A stretch of 64,000 nt of DNA from a bacterium (GTDB lineage Bacteria > UBA8248): positions 1 to 64,000 of the forward strand of contig JAJEJD010000008.1 of NCBI GenBank assembly GCA_022828125.1, given 5' to 3'. Position 1 is the stretch's first letter. Each line of letters starts with the position of its first letter. Below, in pieces: positions 2 through 15,434 of this stretch. Below the pieces are notes generated by a model. It saw only the letters and a program-made list of their open reading frames with translations, had not been told where the DNA came from and ran no database searches. A program made the position numbers and the translations under genes.

Positions 2-2236
2 TACCGGACCGAACTCGCCAGGGAACTGGGAGAACTCGGCTACCGGGTCGAGAAGACCCACGCGGACGGGCGCTTCGAGGTCGCGGGCGTGCCCAGGGAC
101 GTGATCGAGGCGTTCTCGACCCGGCGGGCGGAGATAGAGGCTGCGATGGCCGAGCGTGGACTTGGCGCCACGGCGGAGAACCAGCGCGCAGCCCGGCGGG
201 CCGCGCTCATGACCCGCGCGCGCAAGCGGGACGTCGACAAGACGGCGATCGCGGCCGTATGGCAAAAACAGGCTGCTGATCTCGGCTTCAACGCCGGGGT
301 CCTCGCCGTCCAGGCAATGGCGAGGAGCGCCGTATCCCGCGACTCCGCCCGGAGCGCGGCGGACGTCGAGCCCGCCCGCGAGGCCGTGGAATGGGCCGTA
401 GCGCACTTGGCGGAAAGAGAAGCCGTCTTCGACCGCGCCGCCCTGCTCGCTGGCGCACTCGCCTGGCGGCCGGGCGCGGTGTCGATGGCGGGAGCACAGC
501 GCGAGGTGAAGAGGCTGGAGAAGACCGGCGTCCTGCACGCGGCGGACCTGCCCGGAGTGAAGGATATGATCACGACGGAGAAGGCCGCGGCGGCAGAGCG
601 CGAGACCATCGCGCTCGTGGAGGCCGGCAGGGGACGGGGCGCGCCCGCCATGCGCGGCCGCGCCGTGGACAAGGCACTCAGAAACGGCCCGCTGACCCAT
701 GGCCAGCGCGAGGCCGTCAAACTGATCCTCACGGACTCCGACCGGGTCGTCGGCGTGCAGGGCTACGCCGGCACCGGCAAGACCAGGATGCTGAAACGCG
801 CCCGCGCGCTCCTCGAAAAGCGAGGTTACAACGTGAAGGGTTTGGCGCCTTCTGCCTCGGCCGCGCGGACACTCGAAGCAGAAGCCGGCATCGCGAGCGA
901 GACGCTGCAGCGCTTCCTCACGCGAAACGCGGATGTCGCCGGGGGCCGCCTGAAGAGGAAAGCCCAAAAACAGTTGCGCGCGGGCTACGCGAAGACCGCC
1001 CTCGTCGTGGACGAGGGATCGCTTGCCTCCACGCGCGAGGTACGCGAACTCCTGCGTATCGCGCAGACCTTGCGCCTGCCCCGGGTCGTTCTGGTGGGCG
1101 ATGCGAAACAATTAGACGCCGTCGACGCCGGCAAACCCTTCGCGCAGCTGCAGGCCGCGGGCATGCAGACGGCGGTGATGGAGGAGATCATGCGCCAGCG
1201 CGACCAGGACCTCAAGGCCGCCGTCGAGTCCACTCTCTCAGGCGACGTGAAGAGCGCCTTCGAGAAGCTGGGCTCCAACGTGGCCGAGGTGAAACCCGAC
1301 AACCTCGCGGGCGCCGCCGCCGCGCGCTGGCTTGCGCTCCCGCCCGAGGCGCGTGCAAACGCCGGGCTCATGGCGCCGAGCCACGCGATTCGCGAAAAGA
1401 TCAACGCCATCGTACGCGAGTGCCTGGTCCGGGACGGCGTCGTCCACGGTCCCTCCTTCGTGACGGAACGCCTCGTCTCGCGCGGCTACACGAATCCCGA
1501 GAAATCGCTCGCCGCGAACTACGCCCCCGGTGACGTCGTAGCCTTCCACCGCCCCTACAAGCGCATCGGCGTCGAGAAGGGAGACGAGCTGCGTGTGGCG
1601 GGCGTCGATCACAAGGGCGCCGCGGTGATTCTAGAAGGCAGGCACGGGCGGGAAATCCGCTGGGAGCCCCGCCGTCTCGCGGCGCGCAGCGGCGGTGTCG
1701 AGGTCTACAAGGTTGAGCGGATGGAACTGCGCCAGGGCGACAAGGTCCGCTGGACCCGGAACGACCCGGACCTCGGTCTCATGAACAGCCAAGCCGCCGA
1801 GGTGACGGATGTCAGGGGCGGGCGCGTCACCTTCCGCATCGAGGACGGGCGCGTCCTCGACATGACGAGCGCCGATCCCCAGCTTCGCCACGTCGACCGC
1901 GCCTGGGCCTCGACCGTCCATGCCTTCCAGGGCCGGACGGTCGATACCGTCATCGCCGCGATGGAGGCGAACCACCCCGAACTCACCAACCAGAAGACGC
2001 TATACGTCGAGATCAGCCGCGCCCGGGACCGGGCGGAACTCGTGACCGACGATGCGGGGGTCCTGTGCGAGCGGCTCGAAGCCGCGACGGGGGAGCGGAT
2101 CGCGGCTCTGGAGGCTATAGGAGGGGGCAAGGCCGAGAGCATCGGGACAGAGAAGCAGACCGAAGCGCTGCATCCAGGTGAAGGGCGGCAGCCTGCGATG
2201 GAGAGGACGCGTTTCGATCGCCTGATGGAAATATAG
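2..2236 (+). CDS. MobF-type conjugative relaxase/helicase (TraA/TraI-like), 5' part cut by window edge
   Basis: C-terminal 744 residues of a relaxase-helicase that would nick and unwind DNA at oriT during conjugation. The frame is open from base 2, so the N-terminal relaxase domain with its catalytic Tyr lies mostly outside the window. Visible residues 1-45 resemble the end of a TrwC relaxase domain (GRFEVAGVP, then FSTRRAEIE). A RecD-like superfamily 1 helicase follows: Walker A GYAGTGKT (about residue 254), motif II VVDEGS (about 335), motif III VGDAKQLDAV, motif V VHAFQGRTVDT and motif VI EISRARD near the end. Convergent with two integrase genes, which suggests the edge of an integrative conjugative element or plasmid-derived island. 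Family assignment is firm; whether the protein is intact cannot be judged here. Confidence 0.9.
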   Translation, partial: YRTELARELGELGYRVEKTHADGRFEVAGVPRDVIEAFSTRRAEIEAAMAERGLGATAENQRAARRAALMTRARKRDVDKTAIAAVWQKQAADLGFNAGVLAVQAMARSAVSRDSARSAADVEPAREAVEWAVAHLAEREAVFDRAALLAGALAWRPGAVSMAGAQREVKRLEKTGVLHAADLPGVKDMITTEKAAAAERETIALVEAGRGRGAPAMRGRAVDKALRNGPLTHGQREAVKLILTDSDRVVGVQGYAGTGKTRMLKRARALLEKRGYNVKGLAPSASAARTLEAEAGIASETLQRFLTRNADVAGGRLKRKAQKQLRAGYAKTALVVDEGSLASTREVRELLRIAQTLRLPRVVLVGDAKQLDAVDAGKPFAQLQAAGMQTAVMEEIMRQRDQDLKAAVESTLSGDVKSAFEKLGSNVAEVKPDNLAGAAAARWLALPPEARANAGLMAPSHAIREKINAIVRECLVRDGVVHGPSFVTERLVSRGYTNPEKSLAANYAPGDVVAFHRPYKRIGVEKGDELRVAGVDHKGAAVILEGRHGREIRWEPRRLAARSGGVEVYKVERMELRQGDKVRWTRNDPDLGLMNSQAAEVTDVRGGRVTFRIEDGRVLDMTSADPQLRHVDRAWASTVHAFQGRTVDTVIAAMEANHPELTNQKTLYVEISRARDRAELVTDDAGVLCERLEAATGERIAALEAIGGGKAESIGTEKQTEALHPGEGRQPAMERTRFDRLMEI

Positions 2237-2319
2237 GAAAACCGCATTCACGGTTGGTTCTTGCGTGCGCGGCGGTCAGATCATCATAAACCGGATTCCC
2301 GGTAGTTGCGCCCGGCGCC

Positions 2320-3489
2320 CTACAGCAGGTCTTCGGCGATGCTCGCGGCGACCCGCTCGGCGGACTCGCGCACCGAATCGCGCGCGAGATGCGCGTAGCG
2401 CGAAGTGGTCTCGATCCGGGCGTGGCCGAGCAATTTCCCTATCGTGGAAAGCCCCTCGCCGAGCGCGAGAGCTCTCGAGGCGAACGAATGACGCAGGTCA
2501 TGGAGGCGCACGTCGTGAAGCCCCGCGCGCGAGCGGACGGACTGCCAGGCGTCGTCCAGCTTCCGAAGGTGCGTACCCGGCTTCGTGCCGGGGAGCACCC
2601 AGGGATTGCCGGGGGTGCGCGGCAGACCCGCGAGGAGTTTCACCGCGGGCTCTGAGAGCGAAACGACCCGCGCGCCCGTCTTGGAGTCTGAGAGCCGCAG
2701 TTCCGCTTGATCGAGCGCCACCTCCTCCCAGCGCAGCGTGAGGATCTCGGACTTCCGGCACCCGGTCAGGATCAGGAGCCTGATCGCCGCCACCGCGCTC
2801 GCCGACGCGCCTCCCTCCGTCTCGATCCGGTCGAGCGCGCGTCCCAGGCGGTCGAATTCCGCCTCGGTGAGGAACCGCTCCCGGCGGCCGACCGGATATT
2901 CGGCGATGGCGCGACACGGGTTCGTCCTCTCTGGAATCATGCCCCACTCCTCTGCCAAGCGGTACATCGCGGACAGCGTGCGGACAGCCTGGTTGGCGAT
3001 AGCGGGCGTCTCATGGAGGCTTTGATGCAGCCCCAAGACGTGGGCGCGCCCGACCGCCGTGAGCGGCAGCTTTCCCAGCGCCGGGACGATGTGCCTCAAA
3101 ACCACGGAGCGGAGCGTCTTCACGGTGCGCGGCTTGCACCGCACGGAGACGTATTCGGCGAGATAGCGCTTCGCGAGCTCTGCCACCGTGGGACCGACTG
3201 CGGGCTTGATCGGTTCGGGAACCGCCTCCTCGCCCGCCTTGATGCGCGCGATGACGAGCGCCGCGCGCTTGCGCGCCTGATCGGCGTGGATCACGCCGTG
3301 GCGGCCCACCGCCACCCGTTTCGGCCCCTCGGGCCCCCGCGCCTGGGCGATGTAGACTTTTGAGCCGGTGGGGTAGACCCTGACGCCGAAGCCGGTGAGA
3401 TCGCGATCCCAATACACGGTGTCCTTCTTGACCGTGAATTTCCTCACCAGCCGGTTCGAGAGCGTTTTCATGGCGGGCTTCGTCATCAC
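2320..3489 (-). CDS. Tyrosine recombinase/integrase with N-terminal arm-binding DUF4102-like domain (second of a tandem pair)
   Basis: Site-specific recombinase of the P4/phage integrase class, 389 aa. Residues about 5-90 form the arm-type DNA-binding domain (YWDRDLTGFGVRVYPTG). A SAM-like core-binding domain follows, then the catalytic domain with Arg in LTGCRKSEIL, HxxR in HDLRHSFASRAL, His in LLGHARI and the Tyr nucleophile in TSRYAHL. All catalytic residues are present, so it is probably active. It starts at GTG 3489 or ATG 3486, overlapping the stop of the upstream integrase, so the two are translationally coupled. It is a diverged paralogue of that gene, not a recent copy. It converges on the relaxase, 83 nt from its stop. 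Confidence 0.93.
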   Translation of the reverse strand: MMTKPAMKTLSNRLVRKFTVKKDTVYWDRDLTGFGVRVYPTGSKVYIAQARGPEGPKRVAVGRHGVIHADQARKRAALVIARIKAGEEAVPEPIKPAVGPTVAELAKRYLAEYVSVRCKPRTVKTLRSVVLRHIVPALGKLPLTAVGRAHVLGLHQSLHETPAIANQAVRTLSAMYRLAEEWGMIPERTNPCRAIAEYPVGRRERFLTEAEFDRLGRALDRIETEGGASASAVAAIRLLILTGCRKSEILTLRWEEVALDQAELRLSDSKTGARVVSLSEPAVKLLAGLPRTPGNPWVLPGTKPGTHLRKLDDAWQSVRSRAGLHDVRLHDLRHSFASRALALGEGLSTIGKLLGHARIETTSRYAHLARDSVRESAERVAASIAEDLL

Positions 3490-4664
3490 TCGACCCTCCC
3501 GTTCGTGACGTGGACGCCGATGCTCTCCCCCACACGGGCGGCCGCCGCCTTCTCAGCATCGCGCATCAGGTGCGCGTAGCGCGCCGTGCTCACCACGTGA
3601 CGGTGGCCGAGCAGCCTGCCGATCGCAGACAGACTCTCGCCGAGCGCCAGCGCCCGGCTGGCGTACGAGTGCCGGAGGTCATGAATGCGGACATCATGAA
3701 GCCCCGCCCGCTCCCTCACGGCCTCCCAGTAGTAGGAGAGGCTCAACGGGCGGTCCTTCCCGTTTCCTCTGGAGATCACCCAGGAATCGTCCGGCGAGCG
3801 GGGAACCCCCTCCAGCACCCTCAATACGGGTTTGGTCAGGGGAACCATGCGCGGACCCGCCTTGGCATCTTTGAGCCTGAGTTCCCCCGCCGTGCGGTCC
3901 ACATCGTCCCAGTGCAAGTCCAGTATCTCGCCCCTCCGGCAACCGGTCAGCGCCAGGAGCCTGATCGCCGCGACGGCAGCCAGCCACGCCTTCCCCTCCG
4001 TCTCCAGGTCACGGAGCGCACGTCCGAGGCGGCGAAATTCATCCTGTGTCAGGAATCGCTCCCGCTTGCGCGTCCGGTAGCGGCGAAGCCCCCGGCACGG
4101 GTTGTTCCCGGCCGGAACCAAACTCCACGCCTCGGCCATCTTGAACATCCTGGAGAGCAGTCCCAAGACCGCGTTGGCCGCGACGGGCGTCTCGCGCAGG
4201 CCGTGATGAAGCGCCGATACCTCCGCCCGGCCGACCTCGGTGAGCGCCTTTCTGCCCAGCCCTGGAAGAATGTGGTTCCCGATATAGGAGCGGTACGACA
4301 CAGCGGTGTCGGGCTTGCAGTGCGTTTCGGCATGGTCGCGCATGAAACGCTCGGCAAGCCCCGCCACGGTGGGCGCGGCCTCGGGCGGCTTGGGCTCGGG
4401 CTCCTCGCCCCGCTTGATGCGGTCGATGACGCCGGTCGCCGTCTTCCTCGCCTCGTCACACGACATCTCGCCGTGTTTGCCAAGCGTCACGCGCTTCGGT
4501 CCCCACGGCCCTCTCGATTGCACCACGTAGACCTTCCGGCCCGTGGCGTATACCCGCACCCCGAAGCCCGCCAGCTCCCGGTCCCAGAAGACGGCGTCGT
4601 TCTTCTCGACGGATAGCGCGTCGACGACACGTTTGGTAAGCTTGCGTTCGCTTCTTTTCGGCAT
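3486..4664 (-). CDS. Tyrosine recombinase/integrase with N-terminal arm-binding DUF4102-like domain (first of a tandem pair)
   Basis: 392-aa integrase with the same architecture as its downstream partner: arm-binding domain at about 5-90 (FWDRELAGFGVRVYATG), core-binding domain, and catalytic domain with Arg in LTGCRRGEIL, HxxR in HDLRHSYASRAL, His in LLGHRHV and Tyr in TARYAHLM. A GGAG lies 6-7 nt before the ATG, supporting the start. The divergently placed AT-rich stretch upstream (4665-5100) probably holds its promoter and possibly arm-type sites. Tandem overlapping integrases can act together or on different att sites; which applies here cannot be read from the sequence. Confidence 0.93.
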   Translation of the reverse strand: MPKRSERKLTKRVVDALSVEKNDAVFWDRELAGFGVRVYATGRKVYVVQSRGPWGPKRVTLGKHGEMSCDEARKTATGVIDRIKRGEEPEPKPPEAAPTVAGLAERFMRDHAETHCKPDTAVSYRSYIGNHILPGLGRKALTEVGRAEVSALHHGLRETPVAANAVLGLLSRMFKMAEAWSLVPAGNNPCRGLRRYRTRKRERFLTQDEFRRLGRALRDLETEGKAWLAAVAAIRLLALTGCRRGEILDLHWDDVDRTAGELRLKDAKAGPRMVPLTKPVLRVLEGVPRSPDDSWVISRGNGKDRPLSLSYYWEAVRERAGLHDVRIHDLRHSYASRALALGESLSAIGRLLGHRHVVSTARYAHLMRDAEKAAAARVGESIGVHVTNGRVE

Positions 4665-11673: not shown

Positions 11674-13200
11674 TCAAGATATTTCAGAATCCGAGGGTTT
11701 GACCGCGAACGCAAAAAACAAAACCGCCATCAGTAAATAGCCGACAGCTATGCCGGGCGCCGCCCCCCAACCAAAGAAGCTGACGACGCCCCCTGGCGTG
11801 ATTCGCCATGCGTGGATGACCCCGAACCAGCTCAATAACGCGCCGGCCAGCGCCCAGCCCCCCGCCTGTTTCGGCTCGCGGTCCACGAGTTTCGCCACGA
11901 TGGCGGTCAGAATGATGGACGTGAAAAGAAAACCGCGCTCCAAGGTGATCATCCCGACGAGGTGGAATCCCACTTTGGCGAACGCATCCTGCCCTACTTT
12001 CCATAAGCTCGTTCCCGCTCCCCTGAGGGCTGATTCCACCATCAACAGACCCCACGCGGCGATGGCGGGTATCAACCCGATGGCCACGGCCGGCCCGTGG
12101 TTCTTCGGTACGGCCTGGAAGGCTTGGGTCAGCATCATCACCCCGATCCAGAGCATGAGGGCAAAGAGCGCTTCGCCCGGAATGATCTTTGAGAGCGCCG
12201 CTATCGAGCCGGTGAGGCAAAGGACCGTCATCACGACACCGTTCATGGCGCTGTAGCCCGAGCGCGCTCCGACCGCCTTCCAGGCAGGGTGCCCGATATA
12301 TATGGTCGTGGGGAAACAACTACCCAGACACGCCGCGAGCAGCGATCCTGCGCCGTTCACCGCCAGAGAACTACCCGTGTCGAAATTGTCCCCGCCCGCA
12401 GACGCGCTTTCGAGGCACATCAGGCTGCCGACCAGCGTCATCAGGCCCATGGGGATGGAAACCGCGAGATAATCCCAGGCCAGCGGACCGAATAGAGCGT
12501 CTGACAAAGGACCGAAGGCGAAGGATGGAAGCGCCAGACCCACAGGCGCGGGGATACCGCCCGGAAATCCTCTGATGACGGCGGACAGAACCACTCCCAC
12601 CGCCACAGCCACGACGCCGCCCGGCACACCGAAGGGGAACCGGAATCCGCCGAAATAATGGACCAGGATGATTCCCAGCGGGATCATGGAGAGGAGCGGA
12701 CTCTCCCAGATTCTGAACGCGAAATCCATGGCGATGAACGTGAGCGCGATGCCTCCAAGTGCGGAGAGCAGAGCGGCCCTCGGCGCGACTCGCCTGATCC
12801 ACCCGCCCGCCAGCGCACCGACGGTCTCGATCACCCCGCTCACGAAACAGGCCGCCAGTCCGGCCTTCCAGGCCGCCTCGGCGCTCCCGGTTTTGAGCTT
12901 CACCGGCAGCATAACGAAGAAGATGAACGCGAAAAGCGTCACCGTGTTGAGGCCGTACGGCATGGCGGTCACGTCGTCGCGGCCCTCGCGCGCGGCCAGA
13001 CGCCGCGCCTGCCAAGTATAGAAAAGATTTCCCCCGAGGAGGCTCAGCGCCGCGGCGGGCAACACGCGCCCGAAGATGAGCGAATCTGGAAAATCCAGCA
13101 GCCCTCTGAGGAAACTCACGATGAGCAGAAGGTTGATGAGGTTGTCCATCCACAGGCCGAAGAAGCCGTCGATATCGCCCTTCACGAACCATTTGGCCAT
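11674..13200 (-). CDS. NCS2/AzgA-type nucleobase permease-like membrane protein
   Basis: About 508-aa polytopic membrane protein with a dozen or so hydrophobic segments, resembling the xanthine/uracil permease superfamily (SLC23-like; FFGLWMDNLINLLLIVSF near the N-terminus, then PYGLNTVTLFAFIF). I chose ATG 13200 over an upstream in-frame start at 13227 because GGGAG lies 7-8 nt before it and MAKWFVKGD begins the conserved region. Transport of a nucleobase or related heterocycle is expected from the family. It is divergent from the glutaredoxin-DinB gene, separated by 173 nt that must hold both promoters. The nearby carbamoylase-type amidohydrolase hints at hydantoin or pyrimidine use; this is inference. 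Confidence 0.8.
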   Translation of the reverse strand: MAKWFVKGDIDGFFGLWMDNLINLLLIVSFLRGLLDFPDSLIFGRVLPAAALSLLGGNLFYTWQARRLAAREGRDDVTAMPYGLNTVTLFAFIFFVMLPVKLKTGSAEAAWKAGLAACFVSGVIETVGALAGGWIRRVAPRAALLSALGGIALTFIAMDFAFRIWESPLLSMIPLGIILVHYFGGFRFPFGVPGGVVAVAVGVVLSAVIRGFPGGIPAPVGLALPSFAFGPLSDALFGPLAWDYLAVSIPMGLMTLVGSLMCLESASAGGDNFDTGSSLAVNGAGSLLAACLGSCFPTTIYIGHPAWKAVGARSGYSAMNGVVMTVLCLTGSIAALSKIIPGEALFALMLWIGVMMLTQAFQAVPKNHGPAVAIGLIPAIAAWGLLMVESALRGAGTSLWKVGQDAFAKVGFHLVGMITLERGFLFTSIILTAIVAKLVDREPKQAGGWALAGALLSWFGVIHAWRITPGGVVSFFGWGAAPGIAVGYLLMAVLFFAFAVKPSDSEIS

Positions 13201-13373
13201 CGGAGTCTCCCTGCTCAGAGTCAACAACGTCGAACCAGGCGCGCCGCGCCTTCGGGATAGTAAAACACGCGGGCATATTCGCCAAAGCGCGCGCGTGTGT
13301 TTTTCTCATCCACGTCGTTTTGATATGCTCCATCCATACAAAATCACATTCGCGCTCATCAGGGAGAAAAGCG

Positions 13374-14126
13374 ATGGAAGCCGTCAAAGTCTACACGCGG
13401 CACGGGTGATACACCTGTGCTCTTACGAGAGAGTTTCTCTCGTCCAGTGGTCTGGAAGTCGTCAACCGGGACTGCACGAACGACACCGAGGCACAGGCGG
13501 AATTGAAAGCACTCGGAATCAAGTCCCTGCCCGTCGCCGTGCGCGGAGAGAACGTGGTGGTGGGCTACGACGTGGATAAGCTTCGAGAGGCCTTCGGCAT
13601 CGAGCAGGAAGGCGCAGGCCCCCTCTCTTCCGAAAAGATGCTCCACTACTTCGAGATGGTCTTCGACGCCCTGCGCCGCGTGATCCGCCAGATTCCGCAC
13701 GAAACCCTCGACTGGATATCTCCCGGCAGGCCCCGCTCGCTTCGCCAGCTCACCTGGCACAGCTTCGAGCGTCCGGACCTGGTGATGCAGGCCCACGCAT
13801 CGGGCGAGTACACCGAGGAGATGGTGCGGCGGTACGAGACGATGGCGGATGATTACGATACCACCGAGGACATTTGCGCCTATGGGGATGAAATCCAGAC
13901 CAGGCTCACCGGATTCCTCACGGACGGCGGCGAGGCGCTCGCCAAGAAAGTGTCGAGCTATATGGGGCCCATCACCGTACATGAGCTGATGATCCTCTCC
14001 CTGGGACACGCCTTTCAGCATCTTCGGCAAACCTATCACTATTTCGGGATGCTGGAGATGGAGCCGGAAAATCCGCTCAGGCCCGAGGATTACGAGGAAG
14101 TGCCTGTACCCAAGGATCTGTTCTAG
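13374..14126 (+). CDS. Selenocysteine-containing glutaredoxin fused to a DinB-like domain (in-frame TGA at 13407 read as Sec)
   Basis: Reading from ATG 13374, with AGGGAG 7 nt upstream, the frame meets TGA at codon 12 and then stays open to 14126 (250 aa). The N-terminus reads VKVYTRHG-U-YTC, so TGA replaces the first Cys of a glutaredoxin CxxC motif (U12, C15). A cis-Pro block follows (IKSLPVAV), completing a thioredoxin fold by about residue 78. Residues about 85-235 look like a DinB four-helix domain with His129, His212 and His216 (GHAFQH) as a metal triad. A SECIS-like hairpin lies just after the TGA. The 30-nt gap to the M20 hydrolase suggests one operon. Alternative: a nonsense-mutated gene, or a shorter DinB-only protein starting near 13503. 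The intact flanking frame argues against decay. Confidence 0.82.
13407..13443 (+). promoter_or_regulatory. Candidate bacterial SECIS element (TGA plus downstream hairpin)
   Basis: TGA at 13407-13409 is followed by a perfect 8-bp stem: ACGAGAGA (13425-13432) pairs with TCTCTCGT (13436-13443), with a 3-nt loop GTT. The apical loop begins 23 nt after the TGA and its first base is G. Known bacterial SECIS elements recruit SelB and have an apical loop about 16-37 nt from UGA with a G in the first two loop positions, so distance, stem and loop all fit. All of it lies inside coding sequence, as in fdhF. Confidence 0.8.
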
Positions 14127-14156: not shown

Positions 14157-15434
14157 ATGCCCTCGAAAGACACGTTCCCTCTTCGCGCGAACCGCGCACG
14201 CATGAGGCGTGAATTCAACGCCCAGGCGAAGATCGGCAAATACGGAAAAACGGGCCTCGACCGCGTGGCCTTCACACCGGTCTATAACGAAGTGCGCGAC
14301 CTCGCCGAGGGCTGGATGAAGGAAGCGGGCCTCAAGACGCGCGTCGACGCCGTAGGGAATCTCTACGGTAGAAAAGAAGGCCGCGTGCGCGGGCTTCCCG
14401 CCGTGATGGCGGGCTCCCACCTCGATTCCCAAAGTCCGGGCGGGCGCTTCGACGGCCCCGCCGGCGTTCTCACTGCTTTAGAGGCTTACCGGCGCATCGA
14501 GGAGACGGGACTCGCCCACGATCACCCCATCGAGATAGTGGCCTTCGTGGGAGAGGAATCCGCGTGCGGGATGACGGTATTCGGCAGCAGCGTCGCCACG
14601 GGCGTCGTGGGCGTGAAGGACTTGAAGAACACGGTGCATCCGCCCAGCGGAAAATCGCTCTATGAGGCCATCGAGGCTGTGGGCGGGAGTCCTGCGCGCG
14701 TCCGCTCGTGCCGGATTAAAGATGGCTCGCTCAAGGCTTTTCTGGAGCTTCACATCGAACAGGGCCCCGTGCTGGAATCGGCCGAAATCCCCATCGGCAT
14801 CGTGGACAGGGTGGTGGGATACACGAGAGGCGAGGTTCATTTCACGGGCGTCACGGCGCACTCGGGCGGACAGCCCATGCCCTACCGCAAGGACGCGGGC
14901 ATCGCGGCGGCGGACTTCATGGTGCGCATGGAAAATTTAGTGAATCGCGCGCCCGACTCCCAGCGCCTGACGATCACCTTCGGCGAGATGGAGGCGCTCC
15001 CGGGATGGGTGTCCATCGTTCCCGGAGGCGCGAGGCTCTCCTTCGACCTGAGGAGCAGGAGCCAGGCGGTGATGGATCGCACCCTCGCGCGCATGGAAAA
15101 GACGCTCGCCGCCATCGGGAAGGAGCGAGGCGTAAAGGGTCGTCTGGCCGACGTGAAGAAACTGGCCGTATGCCCTGCGTCCAATAACATTCAAAAGGCG
15201 CTCCGGCGCGCTTCCGAGGAGACGGGCCACGCTTCGCTTACGCTCTCGAGCGGCGGGGTGCACGACGCCTGCCGCATGGCGGAGATTTGCCCCATGGGCA
15301 TGGTGTTCATCCCCTCGGTCAGGGGGCTTTCGCACACGCCGGAGGAGTTCACGCACTTCGACGATATGGTGAAGGGCGCTGAAATACTCGCCTCCGCCAT
15401 TGCGCACCTCGCGAATGAGAAAGTGAAGGCGTAG
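14157..15434 (+). CDS. M20-family Zn-dependent amidohydrolase (N-carbamoyl-amino-acid hydrolase/allantoate amidohydrolase type)
   Basis: 425-aa binuclear metallohydrolase. It shows GSHLDSQSPGGRFDGPAGVL (His88, Asp90 and the bridging Asp), the Glu-Glu pair in FVGEESACG, and LELHIEQGPVLE, a hallmark of the carbamoylase/allantoate branch. A dimerisation domain occupies the middle (GYTRGEVHFTGVTAHSGGQP). It would hydrolyse an N-carbamoyl or ureido amide, releasing ammonia and CO2. AAGGAGG precedes the ATG. It sits between the selenoprotein and a HAAT importer, so the importer may feed it; substrate specificity is not decidable from sequence alone. Confidence 0.9.
   Translation: MPSKDTFPLRANRARMRREFNAQAKIGKYGKTGLDRVAFTPVYNEVRDLAEGWMKEAGLKTRVDAVGNLYGRKEGRVRGLPAVMAGSHLDSQSPGGRFDGPAGVLTALEAYRRIEETGLAHDHPIEIVAFVGEESACGMTVFGSSVATGVVGVKDLKNTVHPPSGKSLYEAIEAVGGSPARVRSCRIKDGSLKAFLELHIEQGPVLESAEIPIGIVDRVVGYTRGEVHFTGVTAHSGGQPMPYRKDAGIAAADFMVRMENLVNRAPDSQRLTITFGEMEALPGWVSIVPGGARLSFDLRSRSQAVMDRTLARMEKTLAAIGKERGVKGRLADVKKLAVCPASNNIQKALRRASEETGHASLTLSSGGVHDACRMAEICPMGMVFIPSVRGLSHTPEEFTHFDDMVKGAEILASAIAHLANEKVKA

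Follow-up and report, generated by a model that had tools for sequence, protein, structure and literature searches.

A predicted selenocysteine glutaredoxin fused to a DinB domain represents a new bacterial selenoprotein family

Introduction

Glutaredoxins in which selenocysteine (Sec) replaces the first Cys of the CxxC motif are described as small, single-domain proteins of about 70–84 aa, among them cGrx1 of Clostridium oremlandii (PDB 7c10) and the UXX-star families NF041212 and NF041114. The HUGP/GUXX-star family (NF045501) is a selenoprotein in which a UXX-star glutaredoxin domain is fused to another domain. The DinB/STL proteins (PF12867), which include BstA/YfiT and mycothiol S-transferase, have a four-helix fold and a His triad with H-x3-H spacing. 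Known DinB/STL thiol transferases use a free low-molecular-weight thiol, and we know of none that carries a fused Sec-glutaredoxin. The thiol-transferase chemistry and the His triad of this group have been described (PMC5815605, PMC10950700); in BstA/YfiT, H160 and H164 are metal ligands and the bacillithiol transferase activity is metal dependent (PMC5815605). Bacterial Sec insertion hairpins (bSECIS) are recognized by a loop of 3–9 nt with a G in position 1 or 2, an upper stem of 4–16 bp, a UGA-to-loop spacing of 16–37 nt, and a minimum free energy of −7.5 kcal/mol or lower (PMC13188914).

Here, we analyze a gene in a 64,000-nt stretch of bacterial DNA (the window; contig JAJEJD010000008.1, forward strand, GTDB lineage UBA8248) from a 3.92-Mb assembly of 32 contigs (GCA_022828125.1). 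Its product shares the glutaredoxin fold and UxxC motif of cGrx1, with about 39–40% identity over that domain, and the four-helix fold, His triad, and H-x3-H motif of BstA/YfiT and mycothiol S-transferase, and unlike the single-domain proteins, it joins the two. It represents a new selenoprotein family, although each of its two domains belongs to a known one.

Results

The gene runs on the plus strand from the ATG at 13374 to the TAG at 14124–14126 (13374–14126), with a Shine-Dalgarno-like AGGGAG at 13361–13366, 7 nt 5' of the ATG. The frame is interrupted once, by a TGA at 13407–13409 (codon 12), and with this codon recoded, the product has 250 residues. The TGA stands at the first Cys position of the glutaredoxin CxxC motif (U12-Y-T-C15), where it aligns with the TGC or TGT codon for the catalytic Cys of plasmid-borne homologues. 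The resolving Cys15 (codon TGT, 13416–13418) is present in every one of the 59 proteins aligned. The preliminary description of this DNA, made from the letters alone, had the same frame and the same TGA base for base, and had read the product as a glutaredoxin joined to a DinB domain, which the domain searches bear out.

Both Pfam domains score above their cut-offs, the glutaredoxin domain (PF00462; aa 4–56, 13383–13541) with 33.7 bits against 22.9 and the DinB_2 domain (PF12867; aa 93–219, 13650–14030) with 27.1–28.6 bits against 24.8. AlphaFold2, run on an 18-sequence alignment, returned a glutaredoxin fold followed by a four-helix DinB fold (pLDDT 90, pTM 0.85). Foldseek matched the N-terminal half to cGrx1 (7c10 and 7c12, 39–40% identity) and the C-terminal half to the DinB/YfiT structures 6iz2, 2p1a, and 1rxq and to mycothiol S-transferase 8f5v, with E values of about 1e-4 to the DinB/STL proteins DR0053 and bce_2162. 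Seven positions show no variation across the 59-protein alignment beyond U or C at position 12: G11, U/C12, C15, P53, H129, H212, and H216. Pro53 (13530–13532) is the expected cis-Pro of the thioredoxin fold, a geometry taken from the family, and His129 (13758–13760), His212 (14007–14009), and His216 (14019–14021) are the three predicted metal ligands, the last two with the H-x3-H spacing of H160/H164 in BstA/YfiT. The glutaredoxin half thus combines a score above the gathering threshold with the UxxC motif and the conserved Pro of the cis-Pro loop, and the DinB/STL half combines score, fold, and three predicted-ligand His residues. Together, these findings strongly support a UxxC glutaredoxin at the N terminus, joined to a four-helix, putatively metal-binding domain of the DinB/STL type.

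The fusion falls outside the selenoprotein families in the inventory and model library searched. Membership in UXX-star was rejected since the product scores below every UXX-star curated cut-off, reaching 37.3 bits against 66 for NF041212, a model of a 70-aa protein. The HUGP/GUXX-star model NF045501 matches the glutaredoxin part only, with 21 bits against a cut-off of 325, and leaves the DinB part uncovered. The 2026 inventory, which covers 119 prokaryotic selenoprotein families, has no DinB fusion, nor is there one among the families of Haft and Tolstoy 2025 as tabulated there (PMC13188914), and no model in NCBIfam 20.0 covers the pair of domains. A search of freely readable literature for work joining selenoproteins and DinB found nothing relevant. 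The earlier remark that no Sec form of this fusion had been described therefore holds for the inventory, the model library, and the literature searched.

We found all four components of Sec insertion, selA, selB, selC, and selD, which the preliminary description had proposed to look for, in the same genome. The tRNA-Sec gene (anticodon TCA) scores 75.9 bits; SelA (576 bits) and SelB (384 bits) exceed their curated cut-offs, and their genes share a contig with about 1 kb between them; and SelD (335 bits; L144, G000:C30:4116–5078) has one in-frame TGA of its own, within a GGUGSK motif. As read from the sequence, an alpha/beta-hydrolase-like gene lies between selA and selB (L065, 8321–13849 of G000:C30), and the cluster is followed directly by a class V aminotransferase-like gene, possibly a Sec lyase or desulfurase. 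Among 30 carriers and relatives tested, 28 have a tRNA-Sec above cut-off, and the two misses are metagenome-assembled genomes of 67–70% completeness.

Downstream of the UGA, a hairpin at 13425–13443 has a perfect 8-bp stem (13425–13432/13436–13443) around a GUU loop (13433–13435) that begins 23 nt past the UGA, exactly as first described; the tip can also be read as a 5-nt AGUUU loop with a closing A-U pair. With −15.2 kcal/mol across the 54 nt 3' of the UGA, the stem, the loop with its leading G, the spacing, and the energy all lie within the published bSECIS limits. The same genome encodes a standalone Sec-glutaredoxin (L150, G000:C6:50333–50560; motif STFUAPC) with the hairpin GAAAGAGUUUCUUUC at the same SECIS position and a GAGUU loop, and the recurrence of GAAAGAGUUUCUUUC makes it look like the organism's element for UxxC glutaredoxins. 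This standalone protein is plausibly a relative of the source of the fusion's glutaredoxin domain.

Since codon-shuffled energies do not separate single-gene hairpins from chance (z of −0.11 for the fusion gene alone; means of −1.23 for 53 Sec genes and −0.30 for 6 Cys genes), we relied on covariation, register, and Cys-form controls. Across 44 distinct Sec sequences, 87.5% of helix cells are paired, compared to 39–62% in slid registers, and the helix contains 15 two-sided compensatory changes (G-C replaced by A-U, for example, or A-U by C-G), two of which come from a single locus (L027). In a slightly longer register, 77.5% of cells are paired in the Sec genes versus 50% in the 6 Cys genes. 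Of the 53 Sec genes, 36 pair contiguously over 5–7 bp from the loop, whereas no Cys gene goes beyond 3 bp. In the remaining 17 Sec genes, a mismatch close to the loop leaves only 2–3 contiguous bp in the conserved register; some members of the family must therefore either accept a mismatch or rely on a hairpin of another form.

Full-length homologues with exactly one TGA and no other stop were found 71 times in three phylum-level groups, far more often than chance would allow, and none of the 71 is a Cys form. The window's family accounts for 18 copies in 17 genomes (48–95% identity to the window's protein, TGA at the same codon), and most of its named carriers are assemblies from metagenomes assigned to Nitrospinota or Candidatus Tectomicrobia. 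The second group has the fusion in 5 of 5 genomes and the third has 48 copies among 95 genomes, both at about 26–34% identity to the window's protein. Nearly every genome sampled from the window's family carries the fusion, as do most genomes of one large family (f86). A broader profile built from Sec and Cys forms recovered no further full-length forms beyond the three groups among 386 sampled genomes. One genome that already has a copy carries a second, divergent Sec fusion at 48% identity (L034, G017:C35:2528–3292). Four others that carry the fusion (G441, G443, G444, and G445) also encode stop-free DinB relatives that match profile positions 83–249 only and have no glutaredoxin.

Cys forms with the same architecture and the same catalytic and predicted metal residues, at 20–27% identity, are found on plasmids of Roseomonas, Caballeronia, Variovorax, and Rhizobium, where they are annotated as DinB family or glutaredoxin domain-containing proteins. 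They differ in having Cys for Sec (GCSSC, encoded by TGC or TGT, versus mostly GUSSC or GUYTC) and a degraded hairpin. Homologues of both kinds, with U or Cys at position 12 plus the DinB part, had been proposed as support for the Sec reading, and both exist. The preliminary description had also named, as evidence that would count against this reading, Cys homologues that lack the hairpin and are often decayed around codon 12; loss of the hairpin was indeed found, but decay was not, the Cys-form genes being intact. When 53 Sec proteins and 6 Cys proteins are placed in one unrooted tree, a single change separates the two kinds with 100/99 support.

Among seven members of the window's genus, dN/dS is 0.00 for codons 1–11, 0.04 for codons 13–43, and 0.06 for the DinB part; these near-zero values on either side of the UGA indicate protein-level selection on both sides. 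In the same genus, dS is lowest in codons 13–28, as expected if an RNA structure is also selected.

The neighbors of the fusion gene recurrently include amidohydrolases. In the window, an M20-family amidase gene (14157–15434, plus strand) starts 30 bp 3' of the fusion gene and scores 347 bits against the hydantoinase/carbamoylase model TIGR01879 (cut-off 204); several genera of the family keep it next to the fusion. A divergently oriented polytopic permease-like gene (11674–13227, minus strand) is likewise a conserved neighbor in several genera; sequence comparison with Pfam, NCBIfam, and the PDB gave no credible match for it. In the third group, the Sec form of one genome (G388) lies near a hydantoinase/dihydropyrimidinase-like gene related to ErtD and a carbon-nitrogen hydrolase. 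The Roseomonas Cys form has an isochorismatase-family hydrolase on one side and an AtzG/AtzE-type amidase on the other, with an Asp/Glu/hydantoin racemase-family gene nearby; on plasmid p1318-3 of Roseomonas marmotae, a cultivable strain, the Cys fusion sits in a putative amide-degradation operon (L120, 7321–10388). Another genome (G102) has an enoyl-CoA hydratase gene 5' of its Sec form, and neighbors vary among the other Sec lineages. Naive ORF clustering in the high-GC genomes gave mostly spurious antisense ORFs, and neighbors there were called by GC3 instead, for orientation only. With amidohydrolase neighbors in three lineages, the recurring theme appears to be the cleavage of cyclic or carbamoyl amides.

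At the edge of the window, we read from sequence a large helicase/relaxase-like ORF (89–2236) and two adjoining tyrosine-recombinase-like integrases (2320–3489 and 3486–4664, minus strand). Together, they suggest an integrated element at 89–4664.

Discussion

Our analysis indicates that UGA 13407 is almost certainly decoded as Sec by SelB and tRNA-Sec, with the hairpin at 13425–13443 directing insertion, and we put the probability that the gene is a bacterial selenoprotein of a new glutaredoxin–DinB family at roughly 0.93, a figure that concerns its identity and not its mechanism. The machinery, the bSECIS, the 71 one-TGA homologues, and the Cys counterparts all favor the Sec reading offered in the preliminary description. 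A 207-aa ORF from an internal TTG at 13503 does exist, from which a DinB protein could be made if the UGA were a real stop and the glutaredoxin start a relic. However, this is very improbable: the low dN/dS at codons 1–11 and 13–43, which precede the TTG, reflects purifying selection and argues against a relic upstream frame, the TGA occurs without any other stop in 71 homologues, the Cys forms read straight through, and the genome has both the SECIS and the Sec machinery. Pseudogenes often gain a TGA through a single-base change, which would fit a recent nonsense mutation, and the preliminary description had allowed for a sequencing error at 13407, but the same TGA recurs across many genera of three phylum-level groups, in genomes that were assembled separately, which excludes an error and makes this reading the most negligible of all. 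We rejected both the pseudogene or error reading and the stop-codon reading on the conservation of the TGA across homologues.

As for function, we tentatively favor, at somewhat less than even odds, a metal-dependent thiol-transfer enzyme with a built-in Sec reductase. On the model of the metal-dependent bacillithiol and mycothiol transferases, a divalent metal on His129, His212, and His216 of the DinB half would activate a thiol or an adduct of one. In the glutaredoxin half, the Sec12-Cys15 pair would then attack the resulting mixed disulfide or S-adduct and close to a selenenyl-sulfide, which a cellular reductant would re-open; Sec would raise the exchange rate. The redox-DinB enzyme with a thiol cofactor proposed in the preliminary description is a plausible version of this chemistry.

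Two other mechanisms, each of them doubtful, would leave the identity of the protein as a selenoprotein unchanged. Mycothiol adds to and leaves its substrate in maleylpyruvate isomerase, and the fusion could be a Sec-dependent isomerase in which the selenolate plays this role while the DinB metal holds a cis-enediacid, for example a maleyl compound. Foldseek did match maleylpyruvate isomerase 2nsf, although modestly (TMq 0.42), and the two families beside the Roseomonas Cys form, isochorismatase and Asp/Glu/hydantoin racemase, include maleamate hydrolases and maleate isomerases; on the other hand, other lineages have different neighbors, and the invariant Cys15 points to disulfide chemistry. 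It is about equally improbable that the enzyme removes sulfur from thiohydantoin- or ergothioneine-type compounds or handles their thiols, with the DinB metal polarizing C=S and Sec taking the sulfur. Here, the amidase beside the fusion gene scores 365 bits against ErtE as well as 347 against hydantoinase/carbamoylase, and the ErtD-related gene lies near the Sec form of G388, but only the latter of the two amidase scores passes its cut-off (520 for ErtE), the curated cut-off for ErtD is likewise unmet, and the M20 amidase family is broad. The weight left after thiol transfer with a built-in Sec reductase and these two mechanisms goes to other thiol chemistry.

Since neighbors differ across Sec lineages, operon context does not fix the substrate. 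In the window's lineage, judging by the neighboring genes, the fusion probably serves a catabolic operon for nitrogen compounds such as hydantoins, N-carbamoyl compounds, or related amides. There is also an outside chance, slightly better than that of either the isomerase or the sulfur-removal mechanism, that Sec12 reaches into or over a DinB metal site, in the same chain or in that of a partner, providing an enzyme-borne nucleophile in place of the free thiol cofactor of DinB transferases. If true, this would be a cofactor-free class of selenium-plus-metal enzyme that serves one particular step in the breakdown of hydantoins or amides.

Since standard gene callers stop at UGA, genes of this kind are likely annotated as truncated DinB proteins or missed. 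The fusion places a Sec site on a thiol-transferase-type domain and has Cys homologues in cultivable bacteria, so the contribution of Sec to thiol transfer can be tested. Altogether, these findings add a selenoprotein family with a domain pairing that is new to the inventory and to NCBIfam 20.0.
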